A stretch of DNA of 64,000 nt from Candidatus Bathyarchaeota archaeon (GTDB lineage: Archaea; Thermoproteota; Bathyarchaeia; Bathyarchaeales; SOJC01). A program made the translations under genes and the position numbers. Of this stretch, positions 972 to 17,041 are shown piece by piece; positions within the stretch are counted from its first letter, which is position 1; the number at the start of each line of letters is the position of its first letter. A model generated the notes under the pieces. It was not told where the DNA came from, ran no database searches, and saw only the letters and a program-made list of their open reading frames with translations. The stretch is taken from the NCBI GenBank assembly GCA_020352645.1, contig CP070683.1, positions 1,342,956 through 1,406,955 of the forward strand. The letters are read 5' to 3'.

Positions 972-1667
972 CTATTTAGTTTCTTCCAGAATCTGAATTA
1001 ACTCTGACAATCTGCTAATTTCATACTTCGGAGTCATATTTGGACTTGATGGTTCTTCAGTTTTGAACTTGCCTTTTCTAATTCTCGCGGAAACTATTGA
1101 CAATTGATTAGCGCTCGATATGTCTGTGTCAAGTTTGTTCCCAACGAACAATGTTTCTTTAGGAGTGACCTTCAGCTGGCTCAGGATTTTCTTGAAGAGT
1201 TTGATTGTAACTCGGTCTTCACCTATCTCCTCTGAAGTGATCAAGTGGTGAAAAAGATGTTGTATCCCCAGCTGTGTGAGTTTCTGCCATTGTTTTACGG
1301 CCAGTCCTTCTGATATGGCGCCTAGGGTGTAGCCAGATTCTCTTAGTTTCAACAGAACTGGCACAGTGTCTGGATATGGCTTTAGATACGCTGCACTTGT
1401 TTCTCGATATGCGATTACTCCAGCGGCTATCACTCTTGGGTTCCACTTTAAGCCTAGGCGTTCTAATAGTCTGTCAAAATGTCTGTTATAGTTCGGACCA
1501 TACTCTTTGACTATCTCTTCTAAAGAATCATACGTGTTTTGAAGATCTGCTGGAAGGCCTGCTTCAATCATTGCTTTGATAGAATTTAGTCTTGCCATGT
1601 TGATCTGCATCGTGGCGTCATAAAGTGTATCTTCAATGTTGAAGAGTACACATTTGATTCTCATCAC
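972..1667 (-). CDS. HAD-superfamily protein with altered catalytic motifs
   Basis: A 231-residue haloacid dehalogenase fold resembling the archaeal TIGR02253/CTE7-type group, which normally starts VLFDIDDTLYD. Here motif I reads VLFNIEDTLYD, so the nucleophile Asp is Asn and the acid/base Asp is Glu. Motif II is intact (GAISEG). The motif III Lys region reads GEDRV instead of the usual VEKP, and motif IV reads FVGNKLDTD instead of VGDxxxxD. The fold looks complete but phosphatase activity is doubtful. The start (GTG 1667 or ATG 1664) overlaps the stop of the upstream SIS gene, so the two are translationally coupled. It is probably the last gene of the minus-strand aminotransferase-SIS-HAD operon. 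Confidence 0.8.
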   Translation of the reverse strand: MMRIKCVLFNIEDTLYDATMQINMARLNSIKAMIEAGLPADLQNTYDSLEEIVKEYGPNYNRHFDRLLERLGLKWNPRVIAAGVIAYRETSAAYLKPYPDTVPVLLKLRESGYTLGAISEGLAVKQWQKLTQLGIQHLFHHLITSEEIGEDRVTIKLFKKILSQLKVTPKETLFVGNKLDTDISSANQLSIVSARIRKGKFKTEEPSSPNMTPKYEISRLSELIQILEETK

Positions 1668-2749
1668 TTTACCACCTTCCCTAGTTTCTCTGGTTTATCC
1701 GGATTTAAGTTGCGTGCTATTGAGCTATAATAAGCAAACAATTGGAGTGGGATTACATATAATATCGGGGAGAGAATTCTCGGAAATCCTGTTGGGATCT
1801 CAACGACATTCGTTGAAAACTTGACTAGATCTTCTTTTCTATCAGAGATGGAAATCAAAGGCGCCCCAAAGCCAGCCATTTTCTTCATTAAGGTCTTGTG
1901 CCTTTCCACCTCATCTTCTGTAGCTATGAAGATTATCGGGGTCCCTCCATCGATAAGTTGAATTGGCCCATGCAAGAACTCTCGACTGGCAAATCCCTCT
2001 GAAAACAAGTTACAAGCTTCCTTGAATTTCAAAGCCCCCTCTAAGGCAGTTGCATAATTTGGACCACTGCCCAGAAGGAAGAAATAATTGACATGCTTGA
2101 AGCTGTGGGCAAGATCATACATCTTCCTGTCAGTAAGAGCTACCGTCTCACGTACAAAACGGGGAGAATTTTCCAGCGTATTCCTCAATGCTTTCATTTT
2201 CTCAGACTTTGGCCATCGAAGAGTGGAGATTTCATGGGCAAGCATGAACAGAGCTGTCAGCTGAGCGGTGTAGCTTTTTGTAGCTGTCACCGCTCTCTCT
2301 TCGCCAGCGTACGTCAGAAGTAGAAAGTCAGCTTTTGTTGCAAGCGGACTTTCAGGCGTATTCGTGAGAGCGGCAGTGTCGATTCGTCTTTCTGCAGCGG
2401 CTTCAGCGGCTTCAAGGATGTCTGAACTCTCACCCGATTGTGATATTGCCAGGAGCAAGGATTTCTTTGGAATAGATGATGGAAGCCAATTTCTAAACTC
2501 AGAAGCTGGAACTATGCTGGTAAGAAGGCCCGCCAAGCCTGAAAGCGCGTAAGTGCCTGCCAAACCAGCGTGATAGCTCGTTCCACTGCCGACAACATAT
2601 ATCATTTCATAGTTACCGCTAACAACCGCTTCTGCAGTACGCCTTACCTGTATACATGCTTTGTTGAGTGTTTCTTGAATTGCTGAGGGTTGCTCATGTA
2701 TTTCACGAATCATATTGTGCGGGAATCGCTCTTGAATCACTATCTCCAT
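1664..2749 (-). CDS. Double SIS-domain aminosugar-phosphate isomerase/deaminase (GlmS C-terminal/GlmD-like)
   Basis: 361 residues beginning with MIREIHEQPSAI, as in the isomerase half of GlmS, but with no N-terminal glutaminase domain. The first SIS domain has VGSGTSYHAG (53-62) and SQSGESSD (103-110). The second has LGSGPNYATALEGALK (226-241) and EFLHGP with His260. The C-terminus NPDKPEKLGKVV matches the GlmS/AgaS tail that carries the catalytic Lys. Known relatives deaminate or isomerise glucosamine-6-phosphate or related sugars. It lies 6 nt downstream of a PLP aminotransferase and overlaps the HAD gene, so it belongs to an amino-sugar-like operon. The exact substrate is not shown by the sequence. 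Confidence 0.85.
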   Translation of the reverse strand: MEIVIQERFPHNMIREIHEQPSAIQETLNKACIQVRRTAEAVVSGNYEMIYVVGSGTSYHAGLAGTYALSGLAGLLTSIVPASEFRNWLPSSIPKKSLLLAISQSGESSDILEAAEAAAERRIDTAALTNTPESPLATKADFLLLTYAGEERAVTATKSYTAQLTALFMLAHEISTLRWPKSEKMKALRNTLENSPRFVRETVALTDRKMYDLAHSFKHVNYFFLLGSGPNYATALEGALKFKEACNLFSEGFASREFLHGPIQLIDGGTPIIFIATEDEVERHKTLMKKMAGFGAPLISISDRKEDLVKFSTNVVEIPTGFPRILSPILYVIPLQLFAYYSSIARNLNPDKPEKLGKVVK

Positions 2750-2755
2750 CTCTCT

Positions 2756-4054
2756 TTAGGGCGGTGAGTGCAACACTTCAGTTCGATCTTTCAGCTCATC
2801 AATGTTCTCGACTATTTTCTTCACGCCTGTAACAACATCAGTCAAATCGTCTTCAGTTAGTGTATGGTAAACAGGAAGAAGAAGATCCTGAGATGAAAGC
2901 TTTTCCGCCTTAGGGCAGAGCCCTTTCTCATAGATAAGCTTCCCGCCATAGAGTGGATTATCAAAAGGGAATGTCGTGTCACCGTAACCAGCTTTTAGCT
3001 TGAATACATCTTGCAGATGAACAGGTATAGGGCAATAGCCTTCAGCTTTTACGCCTTCAGCCAAGAGCGCCCTGGCAAAATCATCCCTAGAAACCCCCAT
3101 CTCTCTCTGAAGCACCAAGGCACCATATGCCCAATAGACATGTTTTCCATGTGGCGATTCGAATGGCGGCCTAATTCCACTAATGTTCTCCAAGCTTTTA
3201 GTTAAGTATTTAGCGTTTCTTCGCCTTCGCTCTATGAAGCCGTCCAATCTTCTCAGCTGGCTTATTCCCATTGAAGCTTGTACTGCAGTCATTCGGTAAT
3301 TGTAGCCTATCCCCCAATACACGTTGTGAGCGGGAACCTGGGGGTAAGGCGAGGTTGTGGCGCGACAGTGATTGGCTATCGATCTGACCTTCTGGGCCAA
3401 CTCTCCATTATCAGTGACAACCATACCACCTTCTCCGCCAGTTGTCATGTGTTTGTTCAAATAGAAACTGAAGCATCCTAAATCACCGAAGGTTCCTACT
3501 TTGTTCCCCCTATATTCAGCGCCAATAGCCTGAGCACAATCTTCTACCACTACCACGTTATGCTTCTCTGCGATTCTCACAATTGAATCCATTTCAGCCG
3601 GTTGCCCGAGCATGTGAACAGCCACCACAGCTTTTGTCTTGGGTGTGATCTTCTTCTCAAACTCCCTAGGGTCCAAGTTGTATGTGCTTGGATCAATATC
3701 TGCGAAATTCGGCACAGCCGACTGGTGCAATATAGCATTCGCTGTTGCCACAAAAGTATACGGCGGAAGGATAACATCATTGGCAGGTCCTGTGCTGGCT
3801 GCTGCAAGAGCAACATGCAATGCTGCGGTTCCTGAATTGACTGCTATTGCGTGTTTAGTCTCAATATACTCCGCAAAAGACTCCTCGAAGTCATTCACTT
3901 TCTTACTCACAAGCTGAGAAAGGCGTTTTGAACTCAGAACTTCTGAAATCGCCTCTATATCTTCCTTTTCCACGTCCGCTTCAACTGGGACAAATGACAG
4001 AACCTCTTCTCTTATCGGTTCCCCACCGTTGATGGCAAGAACTCCTTTGGTCAT
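2756..4054 (-). CDS. DegT/DnrJ/EryC1/StrS family PLP aminotransferase
   Basis: 432 residues with the fold-type I sugar aminotransferase pattern: the N-terminal LAINGGEP seen in scyllo-inosose-type aminotransferases, SGTAALH, VVVEDCAQAIGA with Asp172 for the pyridine nitrogen, and FSFYLNKHMTTGGEGG with the Schiff-base Lys at about 201. These enzymes transfer an amino group, usually from Glu or Gln, to a keto-sugar or keto-cyclitol. It is the first gene of a minus-strand operon with the SIS and HAD genes, divergent from the GlcD-like oxidase. A TATA-like CTTAATATT on the minus strand (4094-4102) lies about 40 nt upstream, and GGTGAG precedes the ATG. A keto-sugar made by the neighbouring dehydrogenases could be its substrate (inference). 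Confidence 0.9.
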   Translation of the reverse strand: MTKGVLAINGGEPIREEVLSFVPVEADVEKEDIEAISEVLSSKRLSQLVSKKVNDFEESFAEYIETKHAIAVNSGTAALHVALAAASTGPANDVILPPYTFVATANAILHQSAVPNFADIDPSTYNLDPREFEKKITPKTKAVVAVHMLGQPAEMDSIVRIAEKHNVVVVEDCAQAIGAEYRGNKVGTFGDLGCFSFYLNKHMTTGGEGGMVVTDNGELAQKVRSIANHCRATTSPYPQVPAHNVYWGIGYNYRMTAVQASMGISQLRRLDGFIERRRRNAKYLTKSLENISGIRPPFESPHGKHVYWAYGALVLQREMGVSRDDFARALLAEGVKAEGYCPIPVHLQDVFKLKAGYGDTTFPFDNPLYGGKLIYEKGLCPKAEKLSSQDLLLPVYHTLTEDDLTDVVTGVKKIVENIDELKDRTEVLHSPP

Positions 4055-4215
4055 TGAAGGTCCCTCACCAGTTTACGCTTACCAATAATAGCGAATATTA
4101 AGATTTTCGTCAACGCTGACCAATGAACACTCTGACCCTTATGGTATAGTGTGTGGCTGAGTCACGTTGCTCTCCTAGGAGCGGTGATCTCCGACCTTCT
4201 TCGGAAAGATCAAGC

Positions 4216-4240
4216 TTTAAATATATGACGCAAGTCATAT
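4216..4240 (+). promoter_or_regulatory. TATA box and overlapping palindrome upstream of the GlcD-like oxidase
   Basis: TTTAAATATA (4216-4225) is a good archaeal TATA box, which would place transcription start about 15 nt before the ATG at 4262. Overlapping its downstream edge is a perfect inverted repeat, ATATGAC (4223-4229), GCAA, GTCATAT (4234-4240). An operator between TATA box and start site is the usual position for an archaeal repressor. The regulator is unknown. Confidence 0.55.
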
Positions 4241-4261
4241 GAAACCTAGGCGATCACCTTC

Positions 4262-5692
4262 ATGAAACCAACTGAGCTAACCTCGAAACTACAAGGGATC
4301 GTGGGTCAAAAATTCGTTTCGGATGACTTCGCCGTGCGTTGGAGTTACTCAATGGATTCAAACATATTTGATAGCATAAATCCTACGCCACCTGCGATAG
4401 TGGTTAGACCTGCCAATATAGAGGAATTGCAGAAAATTTTGTTTTTAGCTTCTAAAACGACGACACCTGTTTATGTCCGTGGAGGAGGCACTGACGCTGG
4501 AGGTAGCAGGGGTGAGAGGATACTAGAATCAATACTAATCGACACTACGCGTATGAACAAAATCATAGAAGTCGATGAGGCCTCTCAGACGGTGACTGTC
4601 GAGGCAGGAATAACTTGGGGCAAGCTCAATAAGGAAGTTGAAGAGCGTGGTTGGAGACTAGGATTCAAAGGCCCCTACTCAGGCTATTCCTCGACAGTAG
4701 GAGGAAGCATCTCTGTTCAAAGCAACGGGTATGGCAGCGCTAGATATGGGGTCTGCGCAGAGGATCTGATGAATCTGAAGGTTCTGTTGCCAGATGGTCA
4801 GATACTGCAAACGGGATCTGCCGTAAATCCAGCAGCTAGAAGATTCTACCGATACTGCATAGGTCCTGATTTGGCGGGCATCTTTGTTGGTTCAGGTGGA
4901 TGCTTTGGTGTAATAGCAGAAGTGACCTTGCGAATGTATCCAAAATCTGTTAAAGCCGCTTTTGGTGCTTATGGTTTCAAAGACTATGAGTCCTGCCAAG
5001 CATGCTACTACCGCTGGTTGAAAACGAGGGAGGCAGACCACATTGCATGGTTTGCTGAAGATGGCTTGGAAGTGAACGCGCCAGAGCTTTCAGAGGACGG
5101 CTATATCTCATTATTGACCTTCGCTGTAGAAGATCAGACTCCAGAACTTGTAGACGCTCGGAGGAGATTACTTGAGGATATCGCAAAGGAAGAAGGAGGG
5201 GAGGCGCTTGATAGTGAGAAATATGCTAAAGGGGATTGGGTTTACAGATTCGAGCTGCTGCCTCGATGGGCCGCCAAAATCGGCCAGTGGCAATGGAATT
5301 GTCACATGATCCCTGCTGGTGATGCACTGGACGATTTGAAGGACATCTTGAGCCTCCTCAAGGCGTTCAAGAGCGAAATCGCGAAGTATGGGGTGAAGCA
5401 TTCAACGGTGAGCATAGCTCATAAGAATGCGGGTCATGTTTCAACTTCCCTATATTATGATCAAAGCAACCCCGAAGTAGTCAGCTTTGTGAAAGAATTA
5501 AGTGACAAATATGCCGAGAGGGCAATAACTAAGAATGGAGGATGCAATTACTGGATAGGTAAGATGTGGTATCCCTACACTATCATGAGAAACCCTGTTT
5601 ATCGAGAAACGTTGACAAGAATTAAGAAAGCTATTGATCCAAGCAACATCATGAATCCAGGCGGTTTGGCTCTGCCAACAGATCTGGGATAG
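4262..5692 (+). CDS. FAD-linked oxidase (GlcD/lactate dehydrogenase-like)
   Basis: 476 residues of the PCMH/FAD_binding_4 family: PAIVVRPANIEELQ, the FAD-binding VRGGGTDAGGSRG (about 75-87), and a C-terminal cap ending AIDPSNIMNPGG, typical of FAD-linked oxidase C domains. Relatives oxidise 2-hydroxy acids (glycolate, D-lactate) or sugar-derived hydroxy acids and pass electrons to an Fe-S partner. The next gene, 5 nt downstream, is such a partner, so the two likely form a GlcD-GlcF-type complex. It is the first gene of a plus-strand operon with its own TATA box and palindrome. Substrate unknown; the setting suggests a sugar acid or carbohydrate intermediate. Confidence 0.87.
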   Translation: MKPTELTSKLQGIVGQKFVSDDFAVRWSYSMDSNIFDSINPTPPAIVVRPANIEELQKILFLASKTTTPVYVRGGGTDAGGSRGERILESILIDTTRMNKIIEVDEASQTVTVEAGITWGKLNKEVEERGWRLGFKGPYSGYSSTVGGSISVQSNGYGSARYGVCAEDLMNLKVLLPDGQILQTGSAVNPAARRFYRYCIGPDLAGIFVGSGGCFGVIAEVTLRMYPKSVKAAFGAYGFKDYESCQACYYRWLKTREADHIAWFAEDGLEVNAPELSEDGYISLLTFAVEDQTPELVDARRRLLEDIAKEEGGEALDSEKYAKGDWVYRFELLPRWAAKIGQWQWNCHMIPAGDALDDLKDILSLLKAFKSEIAKYGVKHSTVSIAHKNAGHVSTSLYYDQSNPEVVSFVKELSDKYAERAITKNGGCNYWIGKMWYPYTIMRNPVYRETLTRIKKAIDPSNIMNPGGLALPTDLG

Positions 5693-5697
5693 GAAGT

Positions 5698-7014
5698 GTG
5701 AGTGTGGCTTCAAAGCGAATCTTGAAAAGAAGGAAAGGAAGCAGAAGCCTAAGCGACTACAAGGATGATGTCTATCTCTGTGCAAGATGTGGATATTGTA
5801 GGGACATGATAAGAGCCAGAGACAAGACAGCTCAAGTCTGCCCTATCCGTGAGAACACCGGCGGTTTTGAATCATATACGGCAAGGGGAAGAAACATAAT
5901 CGCTAGGGGAATTCTAGAGGGAAAGGTCGTGCCTTCAAGTCTCTCAACGGAGTTCATAGATTCATTATATGCTTGCACTTTGTGTGGGAGCTGCCAGGAG
6001 CATTGTCTAGCACTTGACGAAAGAAGCTGGAGCAGATTTCCCGATAACAAGTTTTCAGATCACAAAATCGACATATTAGGGATAAACGAAGCAATGAGAA
6101 GTGCGATTGTGGAGAAGGGAGTTCCCCCTGGAACCATCCGTCAGGTTTTGCGAAACTTGAGCTTGCATGGAAACGCTGAAGGCCTGCCTCGTTCACAAAG
6201 AGACGCATATGCAGAACAGTTCGGCTTTCCTGTCAAGAGAGCAAAGGACGAGAGGTGCAAGACTCTGCTCTACCCAGGATCTGTTGCAAGTTACAGTGAG
6301 AGAAGCCAGCGTACCATAAGAGCCATTGCTGTGATTCTTCGAGGCGCTGAAACAGACTTTTGTATTCTTGGAAGTGAGGAAGAAGACAGCGGCGCGGATG
6401 CGCTCAGACTGGGCGAAACAGGGCTCTTTGAGGAGCTTGCTCAACGCAATATTCAGCTTCTAAAGAAATACGGGATCAAGCAAATCATCTGCCTCTCGCC
6501 ACACGACTTTGACACATTTCAGAATGATTACCCAGTTTTTCTCGGAGAACAGTGGACTGAACTGAAAATCAAGGTTCAACATTATGCTGAAACGCTACTG
6601 AATCTCCTTCGCAACAACAAGATCCATCCAGAGAGAAGATTCAGCAAAATGGTCACTTACCAAGATCCATGCTATTTGGGGAGAATAAACGGTCTCTATA
6701 ATGCGCCTCGTGAAATACTTAGAAGAGTGACTGATCTTGCAGAGATGAAGCTTACACGTCACAATTCATTCTGCTGCGGTGGCGGTGGGGGAGGACTGTG
6801 GCATGATCCTCTAGATAAACCAAGGTTGGAAACGGAAAGGGCGAAACAGGCTTGTGCAACTGGTGCTGAAATAGTGGCGGTAGCCTGTCCAACATGCGCA
6901 AAGATGCTCGAGACTGGGCTGAGTTCAATTCCGCAATGCAAAATGCAAGTAATGGACATTGCTGAAATATTGCTCGAAACGATGAGTTTTATAAACGAAC
7001 CCGCTAGCCTTTAA
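5698..7014 (+). CDS. Fe-S subunit with two ferredoxin clusters and CCG domains (GlcF/HdrD-like)
   Basis: 438 residues. The N-terminus has two 4Fe-4S-type cysteine sets: C28, C31, C34 and C48, then C93, C96, C99 and C103. The first set has an unusually long 13-residue gap before CP, where 3 residues is usual. The C-terminus has two CCG-type motifs, including DPCYLG, CCGGGGGG and ACPTCAKM, as in GlcF, HdrD and LutA. It should carry electrons from the flavoprotein encoded just upstream to an unknown acceptor such as quinone or heterodisulfide. There is no membrane segment. The start is GTG 5698, 5 nt after the upstream stop. Confidence 0.87.
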   Translation: MSVASKRILKRRKGSRSLSDYKDDVYLCARCGYCRDMIRARDKTAQVCPIRENTGGFESYTARGRNIIARGILEGKVVPSSLSTEFIDSLYACTLCGSCQEHCLALDERSWSRFPDNKFSDHKIDILGINEAMRSAIVEKGVPPGTIRQVLRNLSLHGNAEGLPRSQRDAYAEQFGFPVKRAKDERCKTLLYPGSVASYSERSQRTIRAIAVILRGAETDFCILGSEEEDSGADALRLGETGLFEELAQRNIQLLKKYGIKQIICLSPHDFDTFQNDYPVFLGEQWTELKIKVQHYAETLLNLLRNNKIHPERRFSKMVTYQDPCYLGRINGLYNAPREILRRVTDLAEMKLTRHNSFCCGGGGGGLWHDPLDKPRLETERAKQACATGAEIVAVACPTCAKMLETGLSSIPQCKMQVMDIAEILLETMSFINEPASL

Positions 7015-7030: not shown

Positions 7031-8293
7031 ATGAAAAGACTTGGAGTGGGATTTGCAGGAACAGGTTGGGTAGTCAACACATACCATATTAAAGCTTTCA
7101 ATGGTGTGAGAAACGCGGATATTACTGCCGTTTGTGACTTGCAGGAACAAAGGGCAAAGACAACCGCAGCTTTGTGCAAGGAAATCGGCGTGGGCAATCC
7201 CAAGGTATATACTGACGTTGCGGAAATGGCACGAGACTCTGAAGTTGACGCTATCTGGATAACAGTCCCGAATTTCGCTCGAACAACCGTGACGCAATCA
7301 ATAACCGAAGAGGTGATCCAGGGAAAGGCTGAACTAATGGGGATAGCTTGCGAAAAACCGTTGGCGCGAAATGTGGATGAAGCTAAACTTATGTTGAGGA
7401 TGGCAGAGAGCGCAGGTCTCAATCACGGTTACTTGGAGAATCAGGTCTTTATGCCCACTCTCGTTAGAGGCAGAGACATCATTTGGAGAAGAGGCGCAAG
7501 TATTGCAGGCCGCCCACATGTTGCAAGATGCTCCGAAGAGCACGGCGGCCCACACGAAGCTTGGTTCTGGGATGCTTCGCGTCAGGGCGGAGGTGCGGTC
7601 AATGATATGCTCTGTCACAGTATTGAAGCTTCGAGGTTTTTACTGACCGATCCAAATGAAGAGAAGTATGCTCTGACCCCACGTACAGTCTCAGCTGAGA
7701 TTGCCGTATTGAAATGGAGCAGGCCAAAATACGTGGAGAAACTGAAGGAGTTTACTAGAGGGCAAATCGACTACTCCAAGAGACCTGCTGAAGATATGGG
7801 TAGAGCATGCGTAGTTTATGAAGCTCAAGATGGAGAGCTGGCCATCAGTGAGCTGTCAACTTCTTGGAGTTTTGTACCTGGAGAGCGAATCTTCTTCGAA
7901 TTGCTAGGACCCGAATATTACATGCAGATTGATACACTCAATCCGGAGATGAAAGTTTTCTTTAGCCGCGAAATCAAAGGTTCAAGCGGAGAAGATCTCG
8001 TGGAGAAACAGGCAGCTGAACAAGGTTTCATGCCAGTCTTGCCCAACGAAATCTCAACTTATGGATATGTGAACGAGCATCGGCATATGGTCGACAGCTT
8101 CTTGAAAGGTACTGTGCCCCGAGAAACATGGCAGGATGGTTTTCTTGTAGTTAAGCTTCTGATGGCATGCTACATGTCTGCTGAAAAGGGGAAAAGACTA
8201 AGCTTTCCCCCAATGGGTCTAGAGGGTTTTATTCCCAAAGTTGCAGCAGGAACATGGGCAGCAAGAGACATTGTAAATGCCAGTTCTGAATGA
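7031..8293 (+). CDS. Gfo/Idh/MocA family oxidoreductase
   Basis: 420 residues. The N-terminal Rossmann domain has GFAGTGWVV, and ACEKPLARNVDEA contains the conserved EKP motif (Lys about 116). A GFO/IDH C-terminal domain follows, with GGGAVNDMLCHSIEA, where His is the likely catalytic residue. Members oxidise or reduce hydroxyls of sugars, cyclitols and glycosides with NAD(P). At 420 residues it is longer than typical members (about 340-390) and distant from the second Gfo/Idh protein at 12599-13642. SD-like CGGAG (7016-7020) precedes the ATG, and it follows the GlcF-like gene by 16 nt in one operon. Confidence 0.88.
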   Translation: MKRLGVGFAGTGWVVNTYHIKAFNGVRNADITAVCDLQEQRAKTTAALCKEIGVGNPKVYTDVAEMARDSEVDAIWITVPNFARTTVTQSITEEVIQGKAELMGIACEKPLARNVDEAKLMLRMAESAGLNHGYLENQVFMPTLVRGRDIIWRRGASIAGRPHVARCSEEHGGPHEAWFWDASRQGGGAVNDMLCHSIEASRFLLTDPNEEKYALTPRTVSAEIAVLKWSRPKYVEKLKEFTRGQIDYSKRPAEDMGRACVVYEAQDGELAISELSTSWSFVPGERIFFELLGPEYYMQIDTLNPEMKVFFSREIKGSSGEDLVEKQAAEQGFMPVLPNEISTYGYVNEHRHMVDSFLKGTVPRETWQDGFLVVKLLMACYMSAEKGKRLSFPPMGLEGFIPKVAAGTWAARDIVNASSE

Positions 8294-8344: not shown

Positions 8345-9325
8345 ATGAAAAATAGAAAGCACGCAATAGGAATAGACTTGGGAGGAACTTGGATGAGAGC
8401 GGCAATCTTCAGCAGAGAAGGTGCTCTCATCAGCAAAAGAAAGGAAAAAGTGGAAACCAGAAACAAAGAGTCGATAACCCAGCAAATAGTAGCTTTGACG
8501 GTTACTCTCTGTCAGCAAAACAAGGTTGAAATTGAGAATCTGGTTGGAATAGGAATCGCGTCCACTGGACCCTTAGACATCGAAAAAGGAGAACTTGTCA
8601 AACCTGTAAACTTGCCCTTTGACAGCGTGCCTTTGAAAGAGCCAATCGAAGAGCAACTACACATACCAACTTTCTTGGTGAATGATTGTACGGGCGCCGT
8701 CCTAGGCGAAAAAAAGTTTGGGGCGGGGAAAGGTATCGATAATCTTGTTTATGTGACTATCGGGACTGGAATAGGCGGCGGAGCAATAGTTGATGCTAAT
8801 CTCCTCTTGGGAAAAGATGGAGACGCTGTTGAGATTGGCCACTTGACAATCGACTATGAAGGCAGACTTAAATGTGGGTGCGGAAAACGTGGCCACTGGG
8901 AAGCATACTGCTCGGGGAAAAACATCCCGAACTTCGTGAGAATGAGAAGCAAGGAAGTAGGGCAGAAGACACTCGGAAAAAGTATGCTACATTCAAAGCA
9001 GGGAAATGGCCTGCCAAATCTATCTTCAGAAGCATTGTTTGACGCTGCGAAAAGGGGCGACGAGTTTTCATTTCAGCTTGTCAATGAAATAGGCCTTCTG
9101 AACTCAATCGGCTTTGCCAACGTGATAAATGCATATGACCCATCGCTGATTACAGTAGGGGGAACCGTGACTTTGATGAACGAGAGATTCATCCTTTATC
9201 CAGTCAAGAAGCATGTCAAGGAATATACTGTTAATAGAATCCCGGAAATAGTCGTAACTCCACTTGGTCAAGATGTAGGGGTGTATGGTGCCGCTGCAGC
9301 GGCAATAGAATTCACGTCACCATGA
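8345..9325 (+). CDS. ROK-family sugar kinase
   Basis: 326 residues. The phosphate-binding motif is GIDLGGTWMRAA, the catalytic Asp is in VNDCTGAVLGE, and an ATP-binding YVTIGTGIGGG follows. The zinc-binding region has GH and then CGCGKRGHWEAYCSG, in which the third Cys of the bacterial motif is His. ROK kinases phosphorylate glucose, N-acetylglucosamine, N-acetylmannosamine or related sugars. This is the only sugar kinase in the locus, so it likely phosphorylates the imported sugar or an early intermediate. It is the last gene of the plus-strand operon, converging on the zinc dehydrogenase gene. Confidence 0.9.
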   Translation: MKNRKHAIGIDLGGTWMRAAIFSREGALISKRKEKVETRNKESITQQIVALTVTLCQQNKVEIENLVGIGIASTGPLDIEKGELVKPVNLPFDSVPLKEPIEEQLHIPTFLVNDCTGAVLGEKKFGAGKGIDNLVYVTIGTGIGGGAIVDANLLLGKDGDAVEIGHLTIDYEGRLKCGCGKRGHWEAYCSGKNIPNFVRMRSKEVGQKTLGKSMLHSKQGNGLPNLSSEALFDAAKRGDEFSFQLVNEIGLLNSIGFANVINAYDPSLITVGGTVTLMNERFILYPVKKHVKEYTVNRIPEIVVTPLGQDVGVYGAAAAAIEFTSP

Positions 9326-9343
9326 TCCTGAGAATGATCATGG
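9320..9343. terminator. Hairpin shared by the ends of two convergent genes
   Basis: CCATGATC (9320-9327) and GATCATGG (9336-9343) form a perfect 8-bp stem with an 8-nt loop. The arms contain the stop codons of both convergent genes (9323-9325 plus strand, 9338-9340 minus strand), so both genes end in CCA-TGA. There is no clear U-tract. It could end transcription in both directions or protect 3' ends. Confidence 0.55.
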
Positions 9344-10366
9344 ATTCAATATGACCTTTACCACGTCTTCCGCTCCTTTGTCTATTAGCTTCAAAGCCTG
9401 CTGAAGCTGCTCAAGAGGCATTACGTGGGTTATAAGTGTCTTCAAATCTATTTTTTCGCTAGAAGCCAGATCTATTGCCAAACGATAATCAAGCTCGCCG
9501 ACTGTTCTGAAACTTGCCTTAATCTCCAACTCCTTGCTGAAGACCTGCGCCATATCAATACAAGCCGGCTTCAAGTGAAAGCCAAACACTAGAAGTCGGC
9601 CACCCGGCTTGATGGTTTTAATGGCCTGAGCTGCCACAATTGGCGTTCCGACAGCATCAATGGCAACGTCGAATCCTTTCTGACCGCTCAAGTCACTCAC
9701 TCTCTCTGAGAGATTCTCCTTTGAAGCATTTACTGTATAATCGGCCCCTAGTTTCCTTGACATGACAAGCCTAGATTCCTGAATATCGCAAGCGACAAGC
9801 TGGTCTACACCGGCTAACTTTGAAAGCTGTGTTAATAGCAGCCCCGCTGGTCCTTGACCAATAATGACCACAGATTCGCCAACAGAGAATTCAGCTCTTT
9901 TCATTCCATGGATTGCACAAGCGAGCAGATCAATCAGCGCTGCTTCATCATATGGCACGTTTTCAGGCAATCTATAGCAATATCTGACGGGAATCGCAAG
10001 ATATTCTGAATAAGCTAAATCAATCTCCTTAGGATCTTCGCAAAGTTCTTGTTTGCCGGCTATGCAATACGGACATATTCCACATGGAAGAGCATAGAGG
10101 GGACCAGGTACAACTCTTTCTCCAACGTGTGTCTTGTCCACATTGTTTCCAACTTCTACAACTTCACCTGAGCACTCATGTCCAGGTTTCCCTGGTGGAA
10201 GAGGATATTCAATCTCTGGGATTTCCCCTTTTAGGAAGTGGAGATCAGTTGCGTTGCAGATTGCGGCAGATTCGATCCTTATTAGTACATCATTGTCTCG
10301 GATTTCTGGAATGGATGTGTTTCTAACAGATATCCTGTGGGGCGCTTCAAATACGATAGACTTCAT
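9338..10366 (-). CDS. Zinc-dependent medium-chain alcohol dehydrogenase (sorbitol/threonine dehydrogenase-like)
   Basis: 342 residues. The catalytic-zinc Cys lies in AAICNATDLHF (about residue 37), with GHECSGEVVEVG supplying His and Glu. The structural zinc is held by four cysteines in CGICPYCIAGKQELC. The Rossmann motif is VIIGQGPAGLL. The fourth catalytic ligand position reads IDLLACAIHG, with Asp where sorbitol dehydrogenases have Glu. Polyol or hydroxy-sugar oxidation with NAD(P) is expected. It is transcribed on the minus strand, 85 nt downstream of the ABC ATPase gene, and belongs to the same catabolic locus. Confidence 0.88.
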   Translation of the reverse strand: MKSIVFEAPHRISVRNTSIPEIRDNDVLIRIESAAICNATDLHFLKGEIPEIEYPLPPGKPGHECSGEVVEVGNNVDKTHVGERVVPGPLYALPCGICPYCIAGKQELCEDPKEIDLAYSEYLAIPVRYCYRLPENVPYDEAALIDLLACAIHGMKRAEFSVGESVVIIGQGPAGLLLTQLSKLAGVDQLVACDIQESRLVMSRKLGADYTVNASKENLSERVSDLSGQKGFDVAIDAVGTPIVAAQAIKTIKPGGRLLVFGFHLKPACIDMAQVFSKELEIKASFRTVGELDYRLAIDLASSEKIDLKTLITHVMPLEQLQQALKLIDKGAEDVVKVILNP

Positions 10367-10451
10367 ATCCGGAATTTCCCCGTAGACATTTTAAGCGTTC
10401 TGGAAGAATGCAATCGACATGACTAATCTTGGAGTTCGAAGAGGTTCAGTT

Positions 10452-11540
10452 TCATAAGATGATCATCCCTGTTTTCGAGTCAAAAAGATGAGCTTTCTCT
10501 TTGTTCGGCAAAAGCCATACCGTTTCTCCTGCGCTCAAATCCTGAGACGGAGTGGTTATCACGATTATTGATGCCTCTCCTGCTGACAGGTGAACCTGGA
10601 GTTCTCTTCCCACTGGCTCGATAACTTCAACCTTAGCTTTAATTGCTTCCTTCGTCGGTCTCTTCACAATGTCGATATCTTCAGGTCGTACACCGAGCGT
10701 CAGATCTGTAGTTTGGGCTTTCTCCAATGTTTCCTTAGTTTCATCCGAGAGTTCCAGTTGAAAACTTCCAAAATCTACTGTTAGTTTTCCATCTTTTCGC
10801 GTTTCGGTAGCCCCTTCAAACATGTTCATAGCTGGACTTCCAATAAAGCCACCTATGAATGCATTCTTCGGATTGTTGTAGATACTTGATGGAGTACCTT
10901 CTTGTTGAAGAAGTCCATTGTCCATGATTGCAATCCTATCCCCCATACTCATAGCTTCTAGTTGGTCGTGAGTTACATAGACTGTTGTTGCTTTGACTTT
11001 CTCGTGAAGTTTTTTCAGCTCCGCTCTCATGTGCACCCTGAGCTTAGCGTCTAGATTGCTTAGCGGCTCATCCATTAGGAAGATATCAGGATTCCTTATG
11101 ATGGCTCGACCCAAGGCCACTCTCTGACGTTGCCCTCCACTTAGTTCTTTAGGTTTTCTATTCAGCAAAGTCTGAATTTCCAGCAACGCTGCTACATTAT
11201 TCACTCTTTCAGCAATCTCCTCTTTAGGTGTTTTTCGAATCTTTAGGGGAAACGCAATATTATCAAAAACAGACATGTATGGATATATGGCGTAGCTTTG
11301 AAAGACCATCGCTACATTTCTGTCTTTGGGAGGGAGGTCATTTACTTGTCTGTCTCCAATGTAGATTGCTCCAGAATCTGGGCTTTCTAACCCTGCAATC
11401 ATCCTGAGCGTTGTGGTTTTACCACAACCTGAGGGCCCAAGCAACACCATGAATTCTTTGTCTTTTATTTCGAGGGTAAGATCTTCTACTGCAATGACTT
11501 CGCCGAACTTTTTCGTAACCTTTTCTAGAGTAACTTCCAT
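10452..11540 (-). CDS. ABC sugar importer ATPase (MalK/UgpC-like, CUT1)
   Basis: 362 residues. Walker A is GPSGCGKTT, the Q-loop is in VFQSYAIYP, the signature is LSGGQRQRVALGRA, Walker B is IFLMDEPLSNLD, the D-loop follows as AKLR and the switch is YVTHDQ. A C-terminal TOBE/OB domain of about 120 residues is typical of MalK-type ATPases that energise CUT1 sugar importers. The permeases (13867-15592) and binding protein (15695-17041) lie in the same locus but not in the same transcription unit. A small inverted repeat, TCTATC-N7-GATAGA (11552-11570), lies just upstream of the ATG. Confidence 0.93.
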   Translation of the reverse strand: MEVTLEKVTKKFGEVIAVEDLTLEIKDKEFMVLLGPSGCGKTTTLRMIAGLESPDSGAIYIGDRQVNDLPPKDRNVAMVFQSYAIYPYMSVFDNIAFPLKIRKTPKEEIAERVNNVAALLEIQTLLNRKPKELSGGQRQRVALGRAIIRNPDIFLMDEPLSNLDAKLRVHMRAELKKLHEKVKATTVYVTHDQLEAMSMGDRIAIMDNGLLQQEGTPSSIYNNPKNAFIGGFIGSPAMNMFEGATETRKDGKLTVDFGSFQLELSDETKETLEKAQTTDLTLGVRPEDIDIVKRPTKEAIKAKVEVIEPVGRELQVHLSAGEASIIVITTPSQDLSAGETVWLLPNKEKAHLFDSKTGMIIL

Positions 11541-11666
11541 TGCATCGTCTCTCTATCTACTCATGATAGATGATTTTGTTCTCGCTAAAAAGCTTAGCCT
11601 AAAGGTCAATTCCAATAGCCTTCTATAGCGCAGAGTGAGATTGAGCAGCTTGAGGCAGCTATTTGT

Positions 11667-12533
11667 TTAGCCGAGTTCCGCTAGTTTCCAAACTTTGTCT
11701 AGAGCTTTCTCCAATATCCGTGTAGCTTCGGGGGCCGTTTTGTTCTCCAGTTTCTTGCTGAAAGGTTCTGGAGTGACTGGGCCTTTGTAACCTAACTCCT
11801 TGAGCGTAGTAAGAAAACTTACCAGATCGATGATCCCTGTTTCGCCTGGCAAGCAGCGCACTGTATCGATTTGACGATCTAAAGGGGTGTTTATTGGGGC
11901 GTCGTTGACGTGAACATAAATGACTTCTTTAACACTCAGTTGCTTTAGGTCGTCTACTGTCCCTTCTGATGTATACCAATGCCAAGAGTCAAGGAGTAGT
12001 CCTACGTTCTTTGCCCCTAATGCGTCGCACAACTCCAGCATACCCTGCAGGGTATGTATGAAATCATATCTGTGATCAGCACGGAAGGTCTTGGTGCCGA
12101 CAAATTCTAACGCCAACTGGCAATTGTAGGTTTCTAAGATTCGAGCTATGGGCTGAAGTCGCTGAACGTGCCACGCGTAGTTCTCTTTGAAGGAACGAGT
12201 GTCAGAATACGGCAGGACCCAAGTATATGCCCTGGTACAGTTAAGCTCTTGGCTTAAAGCAGCGAGGCTCTGCAAATGCTTGAGATCTGTTTGATAGATG
12301 TTATCATCTTCTCCTTTCCAACTGGTCGGTAGATCCCAGCCACCAAGCTGCAAATCAAAGCTATGGATAATCGCTTTCATAGTCTCAAGAAGCCCATTTT
12401 TCGCGAAAGCTGAGATTTCACCTATGTCAATGTCGATCCCTTGGAAGTTTGAAGCTCTAGCAAGACTTGCCGTTTTGTATAAGTCACAATTTTCACCTAT
12501 GTTGGCTGCCTGTGCATTTAGATTCTTGAACAT
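11667..12533 (-). CDS. Xylose isomerase-like TIM-barrel protein (sugar phosphate isomerase/epimerase family)
   Basis: 288 residues of the AP-endonuclease-2/xylose isomerase-like barrel. Metal-ligand candidates are ALEFVG (Glu), LLDSWHWY (Asp, His), YVHVNDAP (His) and TPEPFS (Glu). Family members isomerise, epimerise or dehydrate keto-sugars and cyclitols (IolE, IolI, LigD-type), and some act on 3-keto-glycosides made by Gfo/Idh partners. The gene lies between the ABC ATPase and a Gfo/Idh gene in the same orientation, 65 nt downstream of the latter, so the two probably act in sequence. Substrate not determinable. Confidence 0.85.
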   Translation of the reverse strand: MFKNLNAQAANIGENCDLYKTASLARASNFQGIDIDIGEISAFAKNGLLETMKAIIHSFDLQLGGWDLPTSWKGEDDNIYQTDLKHLQSLAALSQELNCTRAYTWVLPYSDTRSFKENYAWHVQRLQPIARILETYNCQLALEFVGTKTFRADHRYDFIHTLQGMLELCDALGAKNVGLLLDSWHWYTSEGTVDDLKQLSVKEVIYVHVNDAPINTPLDRQIDTVRCLPGETGIIDLVSFLTTLKELGYKGPVTPEPFSKKLENKTAPEATRILEKALDKVWKLAELG

Positions 12534-12598
12534 GAACGATCAACCTCACTAGATCACTTCGGACCTTTGAATCTTCGCTTTCAGTCTAAGAAGAAACA

Positions 12599-13642
12599 TC
12601 ATCGCAGGGGCAGTTGGACTCTTTTTCCAGTTCTCATTGATTCGTAGGATGCTAAGACTATTTCTATTACAGCCCTTCCATCTTCTCCAGAGACGATTGG
12701 CTTTCTGTCTTGCAGGATTGATTCGATGAAATGTTCGATCTTCTTTCTTTGGAAAGACATGATTTCACCCGTTGATGAGGGGAAATCTAGATTTATTGGG
12801 CCAGCAAAACTTTGTGGAATTTTAGTCTCGCTATAGACTGTTACTGGTGAGGAAGATGGACTGATGAATATTCCTCCTTCGGTTCCAAGAATCTCTGCTC
12901 GGAGATCATACTTCTTTGCTTGCAGGCTGTAGGTCCAGCTTACATCAAGTTCCCCTAGGGCTCCAGCTTTGAAGGTTAGTAAGACAAGTGCGTTGTCTTC
13001 ACCATCTATTCCTCGTACGATGTTTCCTCCAATTGCGCACACACTTGAGACGTCACCTAGAAACCATCTTAGAAGATCTATGAAGTGGACACCTGCATCC
13101 ATTAGACAGCCTCCGCCGACCTTGCTTGTGTCGAAGAACCAATCTGAGACAGCTGGCCAGAATTCATAAGGGCCTGCATAAGCTGCGTGATATCTGATCT
13201 GGAAAACTTTCCCGAGCACTTCTTCATCAAGCAGCTTCTTCACTCTCTCATTGACAGGTTCAAACCTTGAGTTTACCCCAATCATCAGTTTAACTTTGGC
13301 CTTGGTGCACGCCGAAATAATCTTGTCACATTCTTTCAATGAAGGAGCCATGGGTTTTTCGAGAAGTATATGTTTGCCTGCAGCAGCAGCTGCAGTTGCA
13401 TGATCGTGGTGAAGGAAATTAGGTGTACAAATACTTACTGCTTTTATATCGTCTCTCTCCAAGAGTTCCTTATAATCGGTGAGCCAGTTCTCTACTCCGA
13501 ACTTGTGAGCCATGGTTTTTGCTCTTTCTGCATTTGTGTCACACACTGCAATCAGTTTGGCTTCAGCAAGATCTCTGTAAGCGGGCAGATGAACGATTTC
13601 GGCGATTGCTCCAGCCCCAATTACACCGACACCAATCTGCAA
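12599..13642 (-). CDS. Gfo/Idh/MocA family oxidoreductase (second copy)
   Basis: 347 residues. The Rossmann motif is GVIGAGAIAEIVHLP, EKPMAPSL is the conserved EKP region, and GGGCLMDAGVHFIDLLRW contains the family's catalytic Asp/His pair. It is a probable NAD(P)-dependent sugar or cyclitol dehydrogenase. The best start is TTG 13642, which puts the nucleotide-binding strand at residues 4-9. It heads the minus-strand group Gfo/Idh, TIM barrel, ABC ATPase, zinc dehydrogenase. A TATA-like AGATATATG on the minus strand lies near 13675-13682, about 35 nt upstream. Confidence 0.88.
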   Translation of the reverse strand: MQIGVGVIGAGAIAEIVHLPAYRDLAEAKLIAVCDTNAERAKTMAHKFGVENWLTDYKELLERDDIKAVSICTPNFLHHDHATAAAAAGKHILLEKPMAPSLKECDKIISACTKAKVKLMIGVNSRFEPVNERVKKLLDEEVLGKVFQIRYHAAYAGPYEFWPAVSDWFFDTSKVGGGCLMDAGVHFIDLLRWFLGDVSSVCAIGGNIVRGIDGEDNALVLLTFKAGALGELDVSWTYSLQAKKYDLRAEILGTEGGIFISPSSSPVTVYSETKIPQSFAGPINLDFPSSTGEIMSFQRKKIEHFIESILQDRKPIVSGEDGRAVIEIVLASYESMRTGKRVQLPLR

Positions 13643-13825
13643 TTTGACACCTAGAAACGAGAGTCTGTAATTCCCATATATCTCTTTGGCGGATAATGGT
13701 GTGCACTTTTGTGTAATTCATGGTGCTGCTGGGATCTTGGCTTCCTGAATTCGCCTTCTGTTTTCGTTAGCCAAGAAGGTTTCTGAGCCTTTCTGATATT
13801 ACTTGCGTTGCGGTCCGGGGTTACC

Positions 13826-13835
13826 CTTAAAAGTC
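13826..13835 (+). promoter_or_regulatory. Probable TATA box for the ABC permease genes
   Basis: CCCTTAAAAG (13826-13835) lies about 36 nt before the ATG at 13867 in the 224-nt divergent gap between the second Gfo/Idh gene and the permease pair. It fits an archaeal TATA element with a short leader. Confidence 0.4.
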
Positions 13836-13866
13836 TCTGAAAGCATTTTTTGTTGAGTGCCGTCTA

Positions 13867-14742
13867 ATGGTGGAGATCCAGACGATTACTAGCAAAGCGA
13901 TTGGGGTCATGCTGGTAATTCCCGCCATTGCGCTATTAACCCTTGTCTGCTTCTTCCCTCTTGCCCAGAATGTCGAACTAAGTTTTCACTCATGGCACCT
14001 TGCGATTGGAGCTCCAAAAACATTCGTTGGACTGGCAAACTTTGAGCGTCTCATTTTTTCCTCTGTTTTTCATACGGTGCTTCTGAATACGGTAACTTTC
14101 ACGGCGATCAGTGTTCCTTTAGAATTAGGTGCTGGGCTTGGTCTAGCTTTGCTTCTTAGCAGGAAGTTTAGAGGAAGGGATGCAGTTTTGGCGGTGATTT
14201 CACTGCCAATGCTAGTGGCTCCGGTTGCTGTAGGCCTCGTCTGGAAGTGGTTCTACGCGCTTGATTATGGCATGCTGAACCCGTTGTTAGGGGTGTTTGG
14301 CGTGCCTCCCGTGAATTGGTTGGCTGATCCTTCAATAGCTCTGCTTTCAGTGACGGTTGCCGACGCGTGGACCATGACACCCTTTATGATGCTCTTCTGC
14401 TATGCTGGGCTTCAGATGATCCCAAGAGATCGTTACGAAGTAGCTGCCATTGATGGGGCTTCAGGGTTGCAGAAGTTCAGATATGTTACCCTTCCATCAA
14501 TCAAAGGCATTCTTGTCATGGGCCTGATGATAAGAGCTATAGATGCTTTCACAAGACTATTCGATTTAGTGTATGTTCTAACGGGAGGTGGTCCAGCGTT
14601 TTCCACCGAGGTTTTGCCTATATACACATTCAGGACTGGTCTCAGGCACTTCAGGATAGGAATGGGATCAGCTCTGTCGATACTAACCTTGGCAATAACA
14701 GTTGTTTTCGTCTACGTTTTGTGGAAACTTACACGGAGATAA
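13867..14742 (+). CDS. ABC sugar transporter permease 1 (MalF/UgpA-like)
   Basis: 291 residues with six predicted membrane helices. The EAA loop, EVAAIDGASGLQKFRYVTLP (about 193-212), is where the permease contacts the ATPase. The length and single EAA loop are typical of CUT1 permeases. It forms a heterodimer with the next gene, whose start lies 4 nt after this stop. The substrate is presumably the sugar handled by the surrounding enzymes. Confidence 0.92.
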   Translation: MVEIQTITSKAIGVMLVIPAIALLTLVCFFPLAQNVELSFHSWHLAIGAPKTFVGLANFERLIFSSVFHTVLLNTVTFTAISVPLELGAGLGLALLLSRKFRGRDAVLAVISLPMLVAPVAVGLVWKWFYALDYGMLNPLLGVFGVPPVNWLADPSIALLSVTVADAWTMTPFMMLFCYAGLQMIPRDRYEVAAIDGASGLQKFRYVTLPSIKGILVMGLMIRAIDAFTRLFDLVYVLTGGGPAFSTEVLPIYTFRTGLRHFRIGMGSALSILTLAITVVFVYVLWKLTRR

Positions 14743-14746
14743 GACC

Positions 14747-15592
14747 ATGGATTTAGTATCAAAGCTGAGCATCAAGAAAAGTCTTCGGAGAATTCTACTG
14801 CTCATCCTAGTTGTCTTTGCCCTCATTGTTGTGCTTTTGCCACTTTATTGGACTTTCTCCACATCTTTTAAAGAGTCTAGAGCGATTCTTCACATTCCAC
14901 CAGAATTCTTCCCTAGAAGAATAATTTTCCATAATTACGTAGAGATTTTCAGCATAATACCGTTCGCATCGCTCCTGCTTAACAGTTTTGCCGTTACTGG
15001 AATAACGTCTGGTGTCTCATTGATACTGGGCAGCATTGCTGCCTATGGTCTTTCTCGCTATGAGTTTCCAGGAAGCCGAGGTATCTTCGGCTTGATAGTC
15101 GGAACCCGCATGATCCCTCCCATTGCATACATTATTCCACTTTTCCTCTTAGTTTCAAATCTGAGGTTGATCGACACCGTATTAGGACTAGTTCTAGCTC
15201 ATACTTCCATCACATTGCCCTTCACGATCTGGATTATGAAGGGTTTCTTTGATGAGCTACCCCGAGATTTCGAGGAAGCTGCTATGGTTGACGGTCTATC
15301 TAGATTGGGTGCAATGAGAGTTGCCTTACGTCTTGCTCTGCCAGGACTATTTGTCGCCCTGATCTTTGTGTTTGTTGAGTCTTGGAACGAATTCATGTTT
15401 GCGGTCACAATCACGAGAAATGCTGCTAAGACAGCGCCCGTCGGGCTGGTGGGGCTACTTCAATATCCCTACAGACAGCCTTGGGGTGAATTGACTGCTG
15501 GTCTGCTGATTTATACCTTACCTATCTTTGCGATTGCGTACTTCTTTGAAAAATATGTTGCAAAGATATACGTTTTAGGAGTTCTTAAATAG
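14747..15592 (+). CDS. ABC sugar transporter permease 2 (MalG/UgpE-like)
   Basis: 281 residues from ATG 14747, preceded by GGAGAT (14735-14740). Six predicted membrane helices are present. The EAA loop has FEEAAMVDGLSRLGAMRVAL, and the C-terminus ends KYVAKIYVLGVLK, like MalG-type permeases. It pairs with the upstream permease to form the membrane channel of the CUT1 importer. Confidence 0.92.
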   Translation: MDLVSKLSIKKSLRRILLLILVVFALIVVLLPLYWTFSTSFKESRAILHIPPEFFPRRIIFHNYVEIFSIIPFASLLLNSFAVTGITSGVSLILGSIAAYGLSRYEFPGSRGIFGLIVGTRMIPPIAYIIPLFLLVSNLRLIDTVLGLVLAHTSITLPFTIWIMKGFFDELPRDFEEAAMVDGLSRLGAMRVALRLALPGLFVALIFVFVESWNEFMFAVTITRNAAKTAPVGLVGLLQYPYRQPWGELTAGLLIYTLPIFAIAYFFEKYVAKIYVLGVLK

Positions 15593-15668
15593 CTTCTACT
15601 ATGTTGATGCTCGCTCCGTTGATGAAGCTGACTCAGAAGCTGATAACTGACACTGCAAAGTGGCGACG

Positions 15669-15676
15669 AAAAAAAA
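15669..15676 (-). terminator. U-tract terminator after the binding-protein gene
   Basis: Eight consecutive A on the plus strand give U8 in the minus-strand transcript, starting 19 nt after the stop of the binding-protein gene. Oligo-U tracts are the standard archaeal termination signal. Confidence 0.5.
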
Positions 15677-15694
15677 GAGAGAGAATGTTTGGAT

Positions 15695-17041
15695 CTACGC
15701 GCCGACTATATACGCTATGTCTTCATAAAGGGCGTCCATCGCAGCTTGAGGTGTTGACTCACCAGTTAGTGCTTGGTGAACCCGCTTCATCATTGCATCG
15801 TTGATCTCGATCGATCTGGGATCCCTGATAGGAGGAATGATTTGTTTTACACGTCCGAAACTGTCCCACACAACGTCAAGCCATGGTGCTTCTGAGATTC
15901 TAGGATCATCCAGCACTTGGCTTCTACTGGGGGCTTTAGGTGTTGCATAGCAAACCTCTGTTGCGATCTCCGGGCTCGCTACCCATTCAACGAATTGCCA
16001 AACAAGGTCTTTCTTTGGAGTGTCCAGTATTGAAATGCCCATTATGTCTGGTGGTTCGGAGAACGGTCTCATTGCAATTCCCATTTCTCCGACAACTTGT
16101 GAGGCTTCAGGGTCATCCAACATACCGATGATGTAGGTCCACTGATCAGCCATTATGCACTTCCCTTCAAGGATCGCAATTTCACCTTCAAACGTTCCGT
16201 CCACAAGCATTGTAGGCTGTGCGTGCTGACTCAGGTCCACTAGGTATTGTAAGGCCTCTACAGTTTCACTGCTGTTTGCTGGGATGTCTCCTGTGTCAGG
16301 ATCGTAGAATCCGCCGCCGAAATCAGCTACCATGGGTGGGAAGATTGTGTAAAGCGCCCCTCCCATCTCAATCTTGCCTTGCAGGTGAATTGGGTACATT
16401 CCACCTGGTCCTAGTCCGTCAACTGTGTCGTCTTCAACCTTATCCCAGAACTCAGCAACCTGCATCAGCTCTTCGGGAGTCTCAGGCACTTTTAACTCCT
16501 CACCGGGGTACATATTTTCATATTCCGTTTGGTAGTTTGTATCTTCGAAGTAGGGCTCGTAATAATAGAGAATGAGTGCTCCATTCCATAACCCAGGTAG
16601 ATAGTAGAGCTTCTCGTCGATTTCGATTACGTCCAGCTGGTCTGCGTAGAAACCGTCATCCAAAAGCCCCTGTCTGGTTCTGTACTCATATAGATCAATC
16701 AGTTTGCCTGTTGCAGCAAGAGTAGGCAGTTCTATGGAATACATTACTGTACCGTCAATCTTGGGTTCGTCAGATAACATCTCCAGCATAAGCCTGACTA
16801 TTATTTGATCTCTGGGAATTGTCTCTAGCACTACATCGATTCCTGTATCATCTTCAAAGTCGGATAGACGCGCTTCCATGACGTCAAACTCTGGGCCTTC
16901 AGTCCAAGCTATCGTGATCTTCTTCTCAACAGGTCCTGCAGGCTGGCCCATGTACCAGTAGACAGCGATTGCAGCAATTACTATGATGATTATTATGATG
17001 GCTGCCCAAACTGTCATTGCTACAGCTTTTACTTTCGACAT
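15695..17041 (-). CDS. Extracellular sugar-binding protein of the ABC importer
   Basis: 448 residues. The N-terminal hydrophobic helix (about residues 8-30, rich in Ile/Val/Ala) acts as signal sequence or membrane anchor. There is no lipobox Cys. The mature part starts KKITIAWTEGPEFDVMEARL, like family 1 solute-binding proteins, with many Asp/Glu and Tyr/Trp residues as in carbohydrate binders. It sits outside the membrane and delivers substrate to the two permeases. The gene converges on the permease pair, so its expression is set separately. GGTGAG lies just before the start and a TATA box lies upstream. Confidence 0.9.
   Translation of the reverse strand: MSKVKAVAMTVWAAIIIIIIVIAAIAVYWYMGQPAGPVEKKITIAWTEGPEFDVMEARLSDFEDDTGIDVVLETIPRDQIIVRLMLEMLSDEPKIDGTVMYSIELPTLAATGKLIDLYEYRTRQGLLDDGFYADQLDVIEIDEKLYYLPGLWNGALILYYYEPYFEDTNYQTEYENMYPGEELKVPETPEELMQVAEFWDKVEDDTVDGLGPGGMYPIHLQGKIEMGGALYTIFPPMVADFGGGFYDPDTGDIPANSSETVEALQYLVDLSQHAQPTMLVDGTFEGEIAILEGKCIMADQWTYIIGMLDDPEASQVVGEMGIAMRPFSEPPDIMGISILDTPKKDLVWQFVEWVASPEIATEVCYATPKAPSRSQVLDDPRISEAPWLDVVWDSFGRVKQIIPPIRDPRSIEINDAMMKRVHQALTGESTPQAAMDALYEDIAYIVGA

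Follow-up and report, generated by a model that had tools for sequence, protein, structure and literature searches.

The locus at positions 972–17041 of a 64,000-nt stretch of Candidatus Bathyarchaeota DNA (the window; positions 1,342,956–1,406,955 of an archaeal genome that forms one 1.68-Mb contig) contains a conserved 11-gene core, in which a complete CUT1-type ATP-binding cassette (ABC) importer stands beside candidate enzymes of amino-sugar chemistry. Our tentative reading is that the locus forms a rare island for the catabolism of an amino sugar, most probably one with the amino group at C3, either free or in a small glycoside. The locus holds 14 intact, full-length open reading frames (ORFs), each with a strong match in family profile searches, so all the genes named in an earlier reading of the same DNA (the original prediction) exist. 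The core comprises an aminotransferase (DegT), a double-SIS protein (SIS), a HAD protein, a flavoprotein (GlcD) with its iron–sulfur (Fe-S) partner (GlcF), a Gfo/Idh/MocA dehydrogenase (GfoA), a zinc-binding dehydrogenase (ADH), and the importer, which consists of a solute-binding protein (SBP), two permeases (MalF and MalG), and an ATPase (MalK). The remaining genes encode a ROK sugar kinase, a xylose-isomerase-like barrel protein (TIM), and a second Gfo/Idh dehydrogenase (GfoB).

The genome Kmv02 (G093), a Candidatus Bathyarchaeota genome of another family but the same order, carries a second copy of the core. Its 12,978-bp contig JACUTO010000030.1 consists wholly of 11 of the 14 locus genes in rearranged form, and both contig ends fall inside the cluster. 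Protein identities between the two copies are about 51–77% over the 11 shared genes (49–52% for SBP). In Kmv02, GlcD-GlcF-GfoA and SBP-MalF-MalG-MalK lie on one strand and ADH-DegT-SIS-HAD on the other. Despite the changed order, the blocks DegT-SIS-HAD and GlcD-GlcF-GfoA are kept. Since the 11 genes recur together, rearranged, in a genome of another family, the core is a real module and its co-occurrence is not due to chance. No close match to ROK, TIM, or GfoB turns up in Kmv02, where no ROK gene at all is detectable; as that genome is only 81% complete, their absence is likely rather than certain. These three genes are extras found in the window copy only, outside the conserved core. Of the single 14-gene locus originally predicted, the 11 genes including the importer thus stand as a unit, and ROK, TIM, and GfoB do not.

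The core is rare and patchy, as expected of a substrate-specific island. GlcD searches took in 151 relatives, 257 members of the class, and 398 genomes from across the phylum. The core is present in 2 of the 151 relatives, a GlcD with 77% identity occurs in one genome besides the window genome (Kmv02), and neither of the wider searches yields a further core copy. Likewise, strong SBP relatives are found only between the window and Kmv02, with one partial match elsewhere, and SBP has no relative at E<=1e-12 in 12 other searched genomes of its own family.

The fold of GfoA (7031–8293, plus strand; 76% identical to Kmv02) points to keto-sugar chemistry. When 29 homologues (archaea, Planctomycetota, Acidobacteria, and Chloroflexota) are aligned, ~60 columns are invariant, among them Lys109 of the EKP motif, Asp192, and His196. 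In a comparison of its AlphaFold model (predicted local distance difference test score, pLDDT, 89.6) with solved structures, ranks 1–8 are taken by GenD2, DgpA/DgpA1, and KanD2. All of these enzymes act at sugar C3 on glucose rings, and inositol dehydrogenases rank later. The model therefore supports C3-keto-sugar chemistry for GfoA, in line with the keto intermediates proposed originally. Against the curated model of levoglucosan dehydrogenase (LGDH), GfoA scores 35 bits (cut-off, 650). The family is strongly conserved over archaeal and bacterial phyla and has varied neighbors (L022–L051, matches near 10001–11200); among 32 contigs of many phyla that carry GfoA homologues, no partner recurs except in Kmv02.

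DegT (2756–4054, minus strand; 71% identical to Kmv02) belongs to the DegT/DnrJ/EryC1/StrS family of pyridoxal phosphate (PLP)-dependent aminotransferases (378.7 bits). It retains the catalytic PLP lysine (Lys201, in SFYLNK) and shares a cluster with GfoA in both the window and Kmv02. Because DegT matches sugar aminotransferases of several kinds, the sugar position on which it acts is not fixed by sequence. The solved structures nearest to it are those of biosynthetic enzymes such as perosamine synthetase; a scyllo-inositol transaminase also ranks among its best solved relatives. The contexts of DegT homologues with 37–45% identity are mostly unlike the locus; only those of genome G074 and of a cut contig of G080 are similar. 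In the G074 cluster (L166:2010–11862), DegT (42%) is accompanied by a NagB-fold protein resembling glucosamine-6-phosphate (GlcN6P) deaminase, an Ldh_2 protein, a zinc ADH (35%), and a Gfo protein (34%), a single example suggesting that the SIS slot can be taken by an unrelated amino-sugar-phosphate deaminase. The G074 cluster further contains an amidohydrolase, a 622-residue protein with no Pfam match, and a PreA-like protein.

SIS (1664–2749, minus strand; 361 residues; 57% identical to Kmv02) is a stand-alone protein resembling the isomerase domain of GlmS. In E. coli GlmS, Lys485, Glu488, His504, and Lys603 have catalytic roles. SIS keeps the equivalents of K485, E488, H504, and K603 (in ALKFKE, EFLHGP, and KLGKVV of the window protein), and these are conserved in its homologues. 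Together with the DegT lysine, these isomerase residues support the predicted handling of an amino sugar by the locus. SIS shares its double SIS fold and sugar-phosphate isomerase residues with GlmS, GlmD, and NagB-II, but has no N-terminal glutaminase domain and scores below all the curated cut-offs (GlmS models, 283/381 and 276/418 bits; GlmD, 115/580; NagB-II, 159/430); its stand-alone relatives in the same class are 46–57% identical. A full-length GlmS is encoded elsewhere in the window genome, and SIS is therefore not required for GlcN6P synthesis.

The gene for HAD (972–1667, minus strand; 67% identical to Kmv02) overlaps that for SIS by 4 bp. HAD exceeds the cut-off of the broad subfamily model TIGR02253 (193.5 bits; cut-off, 169.75), and its motif I reads FNIEDT, in which an Asn codon (AAC) replaces that of the nucleophile Asp. 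The corresponding motif is FDIDD in Kmv02 and FDIED or FDIKD in homologues of family f9, where motif IV is degraded though HAD is still paired with SIS. The window HAD is thus probably not a phosphatase, and we reject a HAD phosphatase step in the window. HAD may be a non-catalytic partner of SIS, or the substitution may be a sequencing error.

GlcD (4262–5692, plus strand; 77% identical to Kmv02) and GlcF (5698–7014, plus strand; 62%) look like a flavin plus Fe-S oxidase. GlcD, with FAD_binding_4 and FAD-oxidase_C domains, has the LDHD/AGPS fold, and its best solved relatives are the D-lactate dehydrogenase LDHD, LctD, and AGPS (its structure model has a moderate pLDDT of 75.6). GlcF retains a complete CCG domain and a pair of 4Fe-4S motifs. 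The FAD fold and the adjoining Fe-S gene are shared with GlcD-GlcF, LDHD, and LctD enzymes, but the group lacks the metal and catalytic motifs by which 2-hydroxy-acid dehydrogenases are marked: HxGDGNxH and EHG are missing from the proteins of the window, Kmv02, and two other genomes (G178 and G223), and GlcD reads AHKNAGHVST and GGCNYWIGK instead. With 131 of the 568 bits required by the curated GlcD model, the protein appears GlcD-like in fold only, and a role as 2-hydroxy-acid oxidase is weakened. Such a GlcD group is new to us. The predicted electron capture by a flavoprotein and Fe-S clusters is supported by the motifs that GlcF keeps; GlcD departs from the hydroxy-acid enzymes. Genes for electron-transfer flavoprotein (ETF) are present in the window genome.

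From the gene content, conserved clustering, fold classes, and catalytic residues, we infer a substrate, a direction, an order of steps, and an electron acceptor. The CUT1 transporter would import the amino sugar. DegT would pass the amino group to an acceptor, leaving a 3-keto sugar whose ring carbon would be reduced or oxidized with NAD(H) by GfoA (or ADH); DegT and GfoA would thus resemble the GenS2/GenD2 pair run in the deaminating direction. SIS may act as an aldose–ketose isomerase, an amino-sugar-phosphate deaminase, or both, acting on a hexose phosphate and so linking the product to fructose 6-phosphate, and in the window ROK could be the kinase that provides the phosphate. GlcD-GlcF would oxidize a sugar intermediate other than a hydroxy acid and pass the electrons through its Fe-S clusters, possibly to ETF. 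TIM and GfoB would be a window-specific addition resembling 3-keto-glycoside eliminase/dehydrogenase pairs. A more specific proposal, which we hold to be unlikely, is a hitherto undescribed archaeal pathway on a 3-amino sugar of the kanosamine or aminoglycoside kind, in which transamination to a 3-keto sugar is followed by oxidation; the oxidizing enzyme would be a flavin/Fe-S sugar dehydrogenase of a new class, one whose 2-hydroxy-acid site has been lost.

The pairing of DegT with GfoA has precedents. In vitro, GenS2 and GenD2 convert 3''-amino to 3''-hydroxy aminoglycosides (PMC4340712). As in the locus, GenD2/GenS2 and KanD2/KanS2 combine a dehydrogenase of the Gfo/Idh sugar-C3 fold with a DegT aminotransferase encoded together, but GenD2 and KanD2 are only ~20–23% identical to GfoA, and the Gen and Kan pairs lie in antibiotic clusters, whereas the pair of the locus is archaeal and lies beside an importer, SIS, and a flavin/Fe-S oxidase. 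We favor the catabolic direction because enzymes of the DegT and Gfo kinds adjoin an importer here. All the enzyme kinds are known; their combination and the archaeal host are new to us. The open-access literature on kanosamine catabolism, growth on aminoglycosides, and aminocyclitol catabolism yields no matching archaeal pathway. Nor does any locus enzyme pass the curated equivalog cut-off of a characterized pathway: among all locus proteins, only MalK and HAD exceed NCBIfam cut-offs, both of broad subfamily models.

Several observations weigh against this catabolic assignment. The core occurs in only two of the searched genomes, and a mechanism of the GenD2/GenS2 kind leaves GlcD-GlcF without an obvious step. 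The best curated score of SIS, though below the cut-off, is for GlmS, which works in the synthesis direction, and in the window HAD the nucleophile is missing. In Kmv02 a phosphorylated route is not supported, since no ROK kinase is detectable in that genome at its 81% completeness. SIS-HAD stands alone in family f9, so the pair need not be tied to the importer. Finally, the importer gives no hint of its ligand: against solved structures, SBP has weak matches to sugar-binding proteins only, with no ligand assignment.

The strongest alternative, which we consider rather less probable than amino-sugar catabolism, is that two functions adjoin: the importer, GlcD-GlcF, and GfoA (with TIM and GfoB) would take up and oxidize a neutral glycoside or anhydrosugar through 3-keto intermediates, and DegT-SIS-HAD would form a separate amino-sugar unit. 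In G178 and G223, GlcD-GlcF (61% and 55% identical to window GlcD and GlcF, respectively) lies with a CUT2-type monosaccharide importer, ETF, and a Gfo protein that scores 401 bits against the LGDH model (cut-off, 650), and no DegT or SIS match is found in these stretches. This context, which in G178 also includes a TIM barrel ~8.5 kb from GlcD-GlcF, ties the flavoprotein to sugars and not to lactate or glycolate. These clusters (L145:2430–13659 and L146:4652–19747), which are related to the locus but represent a different sugar-oxidation cluster, contain a second CCG protein and, adjoining, a 625-residue divergent protein resembling phosphoenolpyruvate carboxykinase. Separate functions would also fit the lone SIS-HAD pairs of family f9 and the many phyla in which GfoA homologues have no adjoining DegT or SIS. 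A precedent for the neutral-sugar part is the levoglucosan pathway LgdA-LgdB1-LgdB2-LgdC, in which Gfo/Idh dehydrogenases and xylose-isomerase-like barrels adjoin a sugar ABC importer (PMC7676230). Like the locus, this pathway and 3-keto-glycoside elimination of the DgpA type combine a Gfo/Idh protein with a xylose-isomerase-like barrel. However, the levoglucosan pathway has two barrels, LgdB1 and LgdB2 (PMC7676230), whereas the locus has one AP_endonuc_2 protein, lies far under the LGDH cut-off (132 bits for GfoB), and has DegT, SIS, ADH, and GlcD-GlcF in addition. Moreover, DegT-SIS-HAD stays with the importer and oxidase genes in both genomes despite the rearrangement.

Both remaining explanations are less likely than amino-sugar catabolism or two adjoining functions. 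In amino-sugar biosynthesis, which we consider improbable, a Gfo enzyme would oxidize C3, DegT would aminate it, and a hexose phosphate would be provided or set free by SIS and HAD, on the pattern of kanosamine synthesis by NtdC-NtdA-NtdB. The trio of aminotransferase, Gfo/Idh protein, and HAD that suggested kanosamine-type chemistry is indeed encoded together in the locus, as in the Ntd system, SIS resembles GlmS, and the nearest solved relatives of DegT are biosynthetic. However, the trio is compromised by the missing HAD nucleophile in the window (Kmv02 retains DxD), the importer and the flavin/Fe-S oxidase are co-conserved, DegT matches NtdA with only 131 bits, and family searches of the 14 ORFs identify neither a glycosyltransferase nor a nucleotidyltransferase. 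Slightly more doubtful still is aminocyclitol or inositol catabolism, in which DegT would convert an inosamine to an inosose for Gfo, ADH, and TIM to process as in the Thermotoga IolG-IolM-IolO route: the Iol enzymes are among the best curated matches, TIM matches IolI, and DegT is related to scyllo-inositol transaminase, but the scores are far under the cut-offs (GfoB with IolG, 193/355 bits; ADH with IolM, 173/450; TIM with IolO, 44/300), TIM and GfoB lie outside the conserved core, and the closest folds of GfoA are enzymes of glucose rings.

Parts of the locus recur separately. In family f9, SIS-HAD pairs (46–57% identity) occur in housekeeping surroundings without the rest of the locus, and homologues of GfoA (53%), TIM (~50%), and ROK (~52%) lie at other sites. 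In related genomes these components are thus scattered in f9, whereas Kmv02 keeps the core as a cluster; the module looks assembled from parts available within the class. The f9 SIS-HAD pairs directly follow a duplicated protein of 186–190 residues in a stable neighborhood (L079:9028–11409; L080, L082, and L083); judged by inspection of the sequences, this neighbor reads as a TATA-binding protein, and others look like a signal peptidase and a methyltransferase. The f9 contexts of TIM and ROK were rejected as relatives of the locus, their surroundings being conserved yet unrelated; TIM stands beside a Gfo protein in two genomes.

The genes lie in five strand blocks: DegT-SIS-HAD (minus), GlcD-GlcF-GfoA-ROK (plus), GfoB-TIM-MalK-ADH (minus), MalF-MalG (plus), and SBP (minus). 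The four transcription units of the original prediction, which is partly supported overall, become five strand blocks because the SBP gene faces the two permease genes in convergent orientation. The predicted dedicated importer is a full CUT1 set, retained in Kmv02. It comprises SBP with an N-terminal hydrophobic segment (15695–17041), the BPD_transp_1 permeases MalF (13867–14742; 51% identical to Kmv02) and MalG (14702–15592; 57%), and MalK (10452–11540; 59%), which exceeds the cut-off of NF008653. ADH (9338–10366; 59%) is of the polyol/threonine type. Among the accessory genes, ROK (8345–9325) is the sole ROK gene found in the window genome, TIM (11667–12533) is related to 3u0h as well as to IolI, and the nearest solved relatives of GfoB (12599–13642) are DgpA/DgpA1. 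GC content is flat along the whole window. Adjoining the locus, positions 17358–18524 encode a possibly surface-exposed 388-residue protein that carries an Ig-like Big_3_5 domain and is hydrophobic near its termini; it shows no evidence of module membership.

Anoxic sediments contain Bathyarchaeia in great abundance. Carbohydrates are not used by the cultivated species Bathyarchaeum tardum, and its authors suggest that missing sugar transporters may be the reason (PMC10477458). A dedicated sugar importer coupled to oxidation and, probably, deamination would give some Bathyarchaeia a concrete source of carbon and nitrogen. Lacking the hydroxy-acid site, the GlcD-GlcF group would represent a new type of sugar-oxidizing flavoprotein, and the GfoA family, for which we found no characterized member, is widespread among archaea, Planctomycetota, Acidobacteria, and Chloroflexota.

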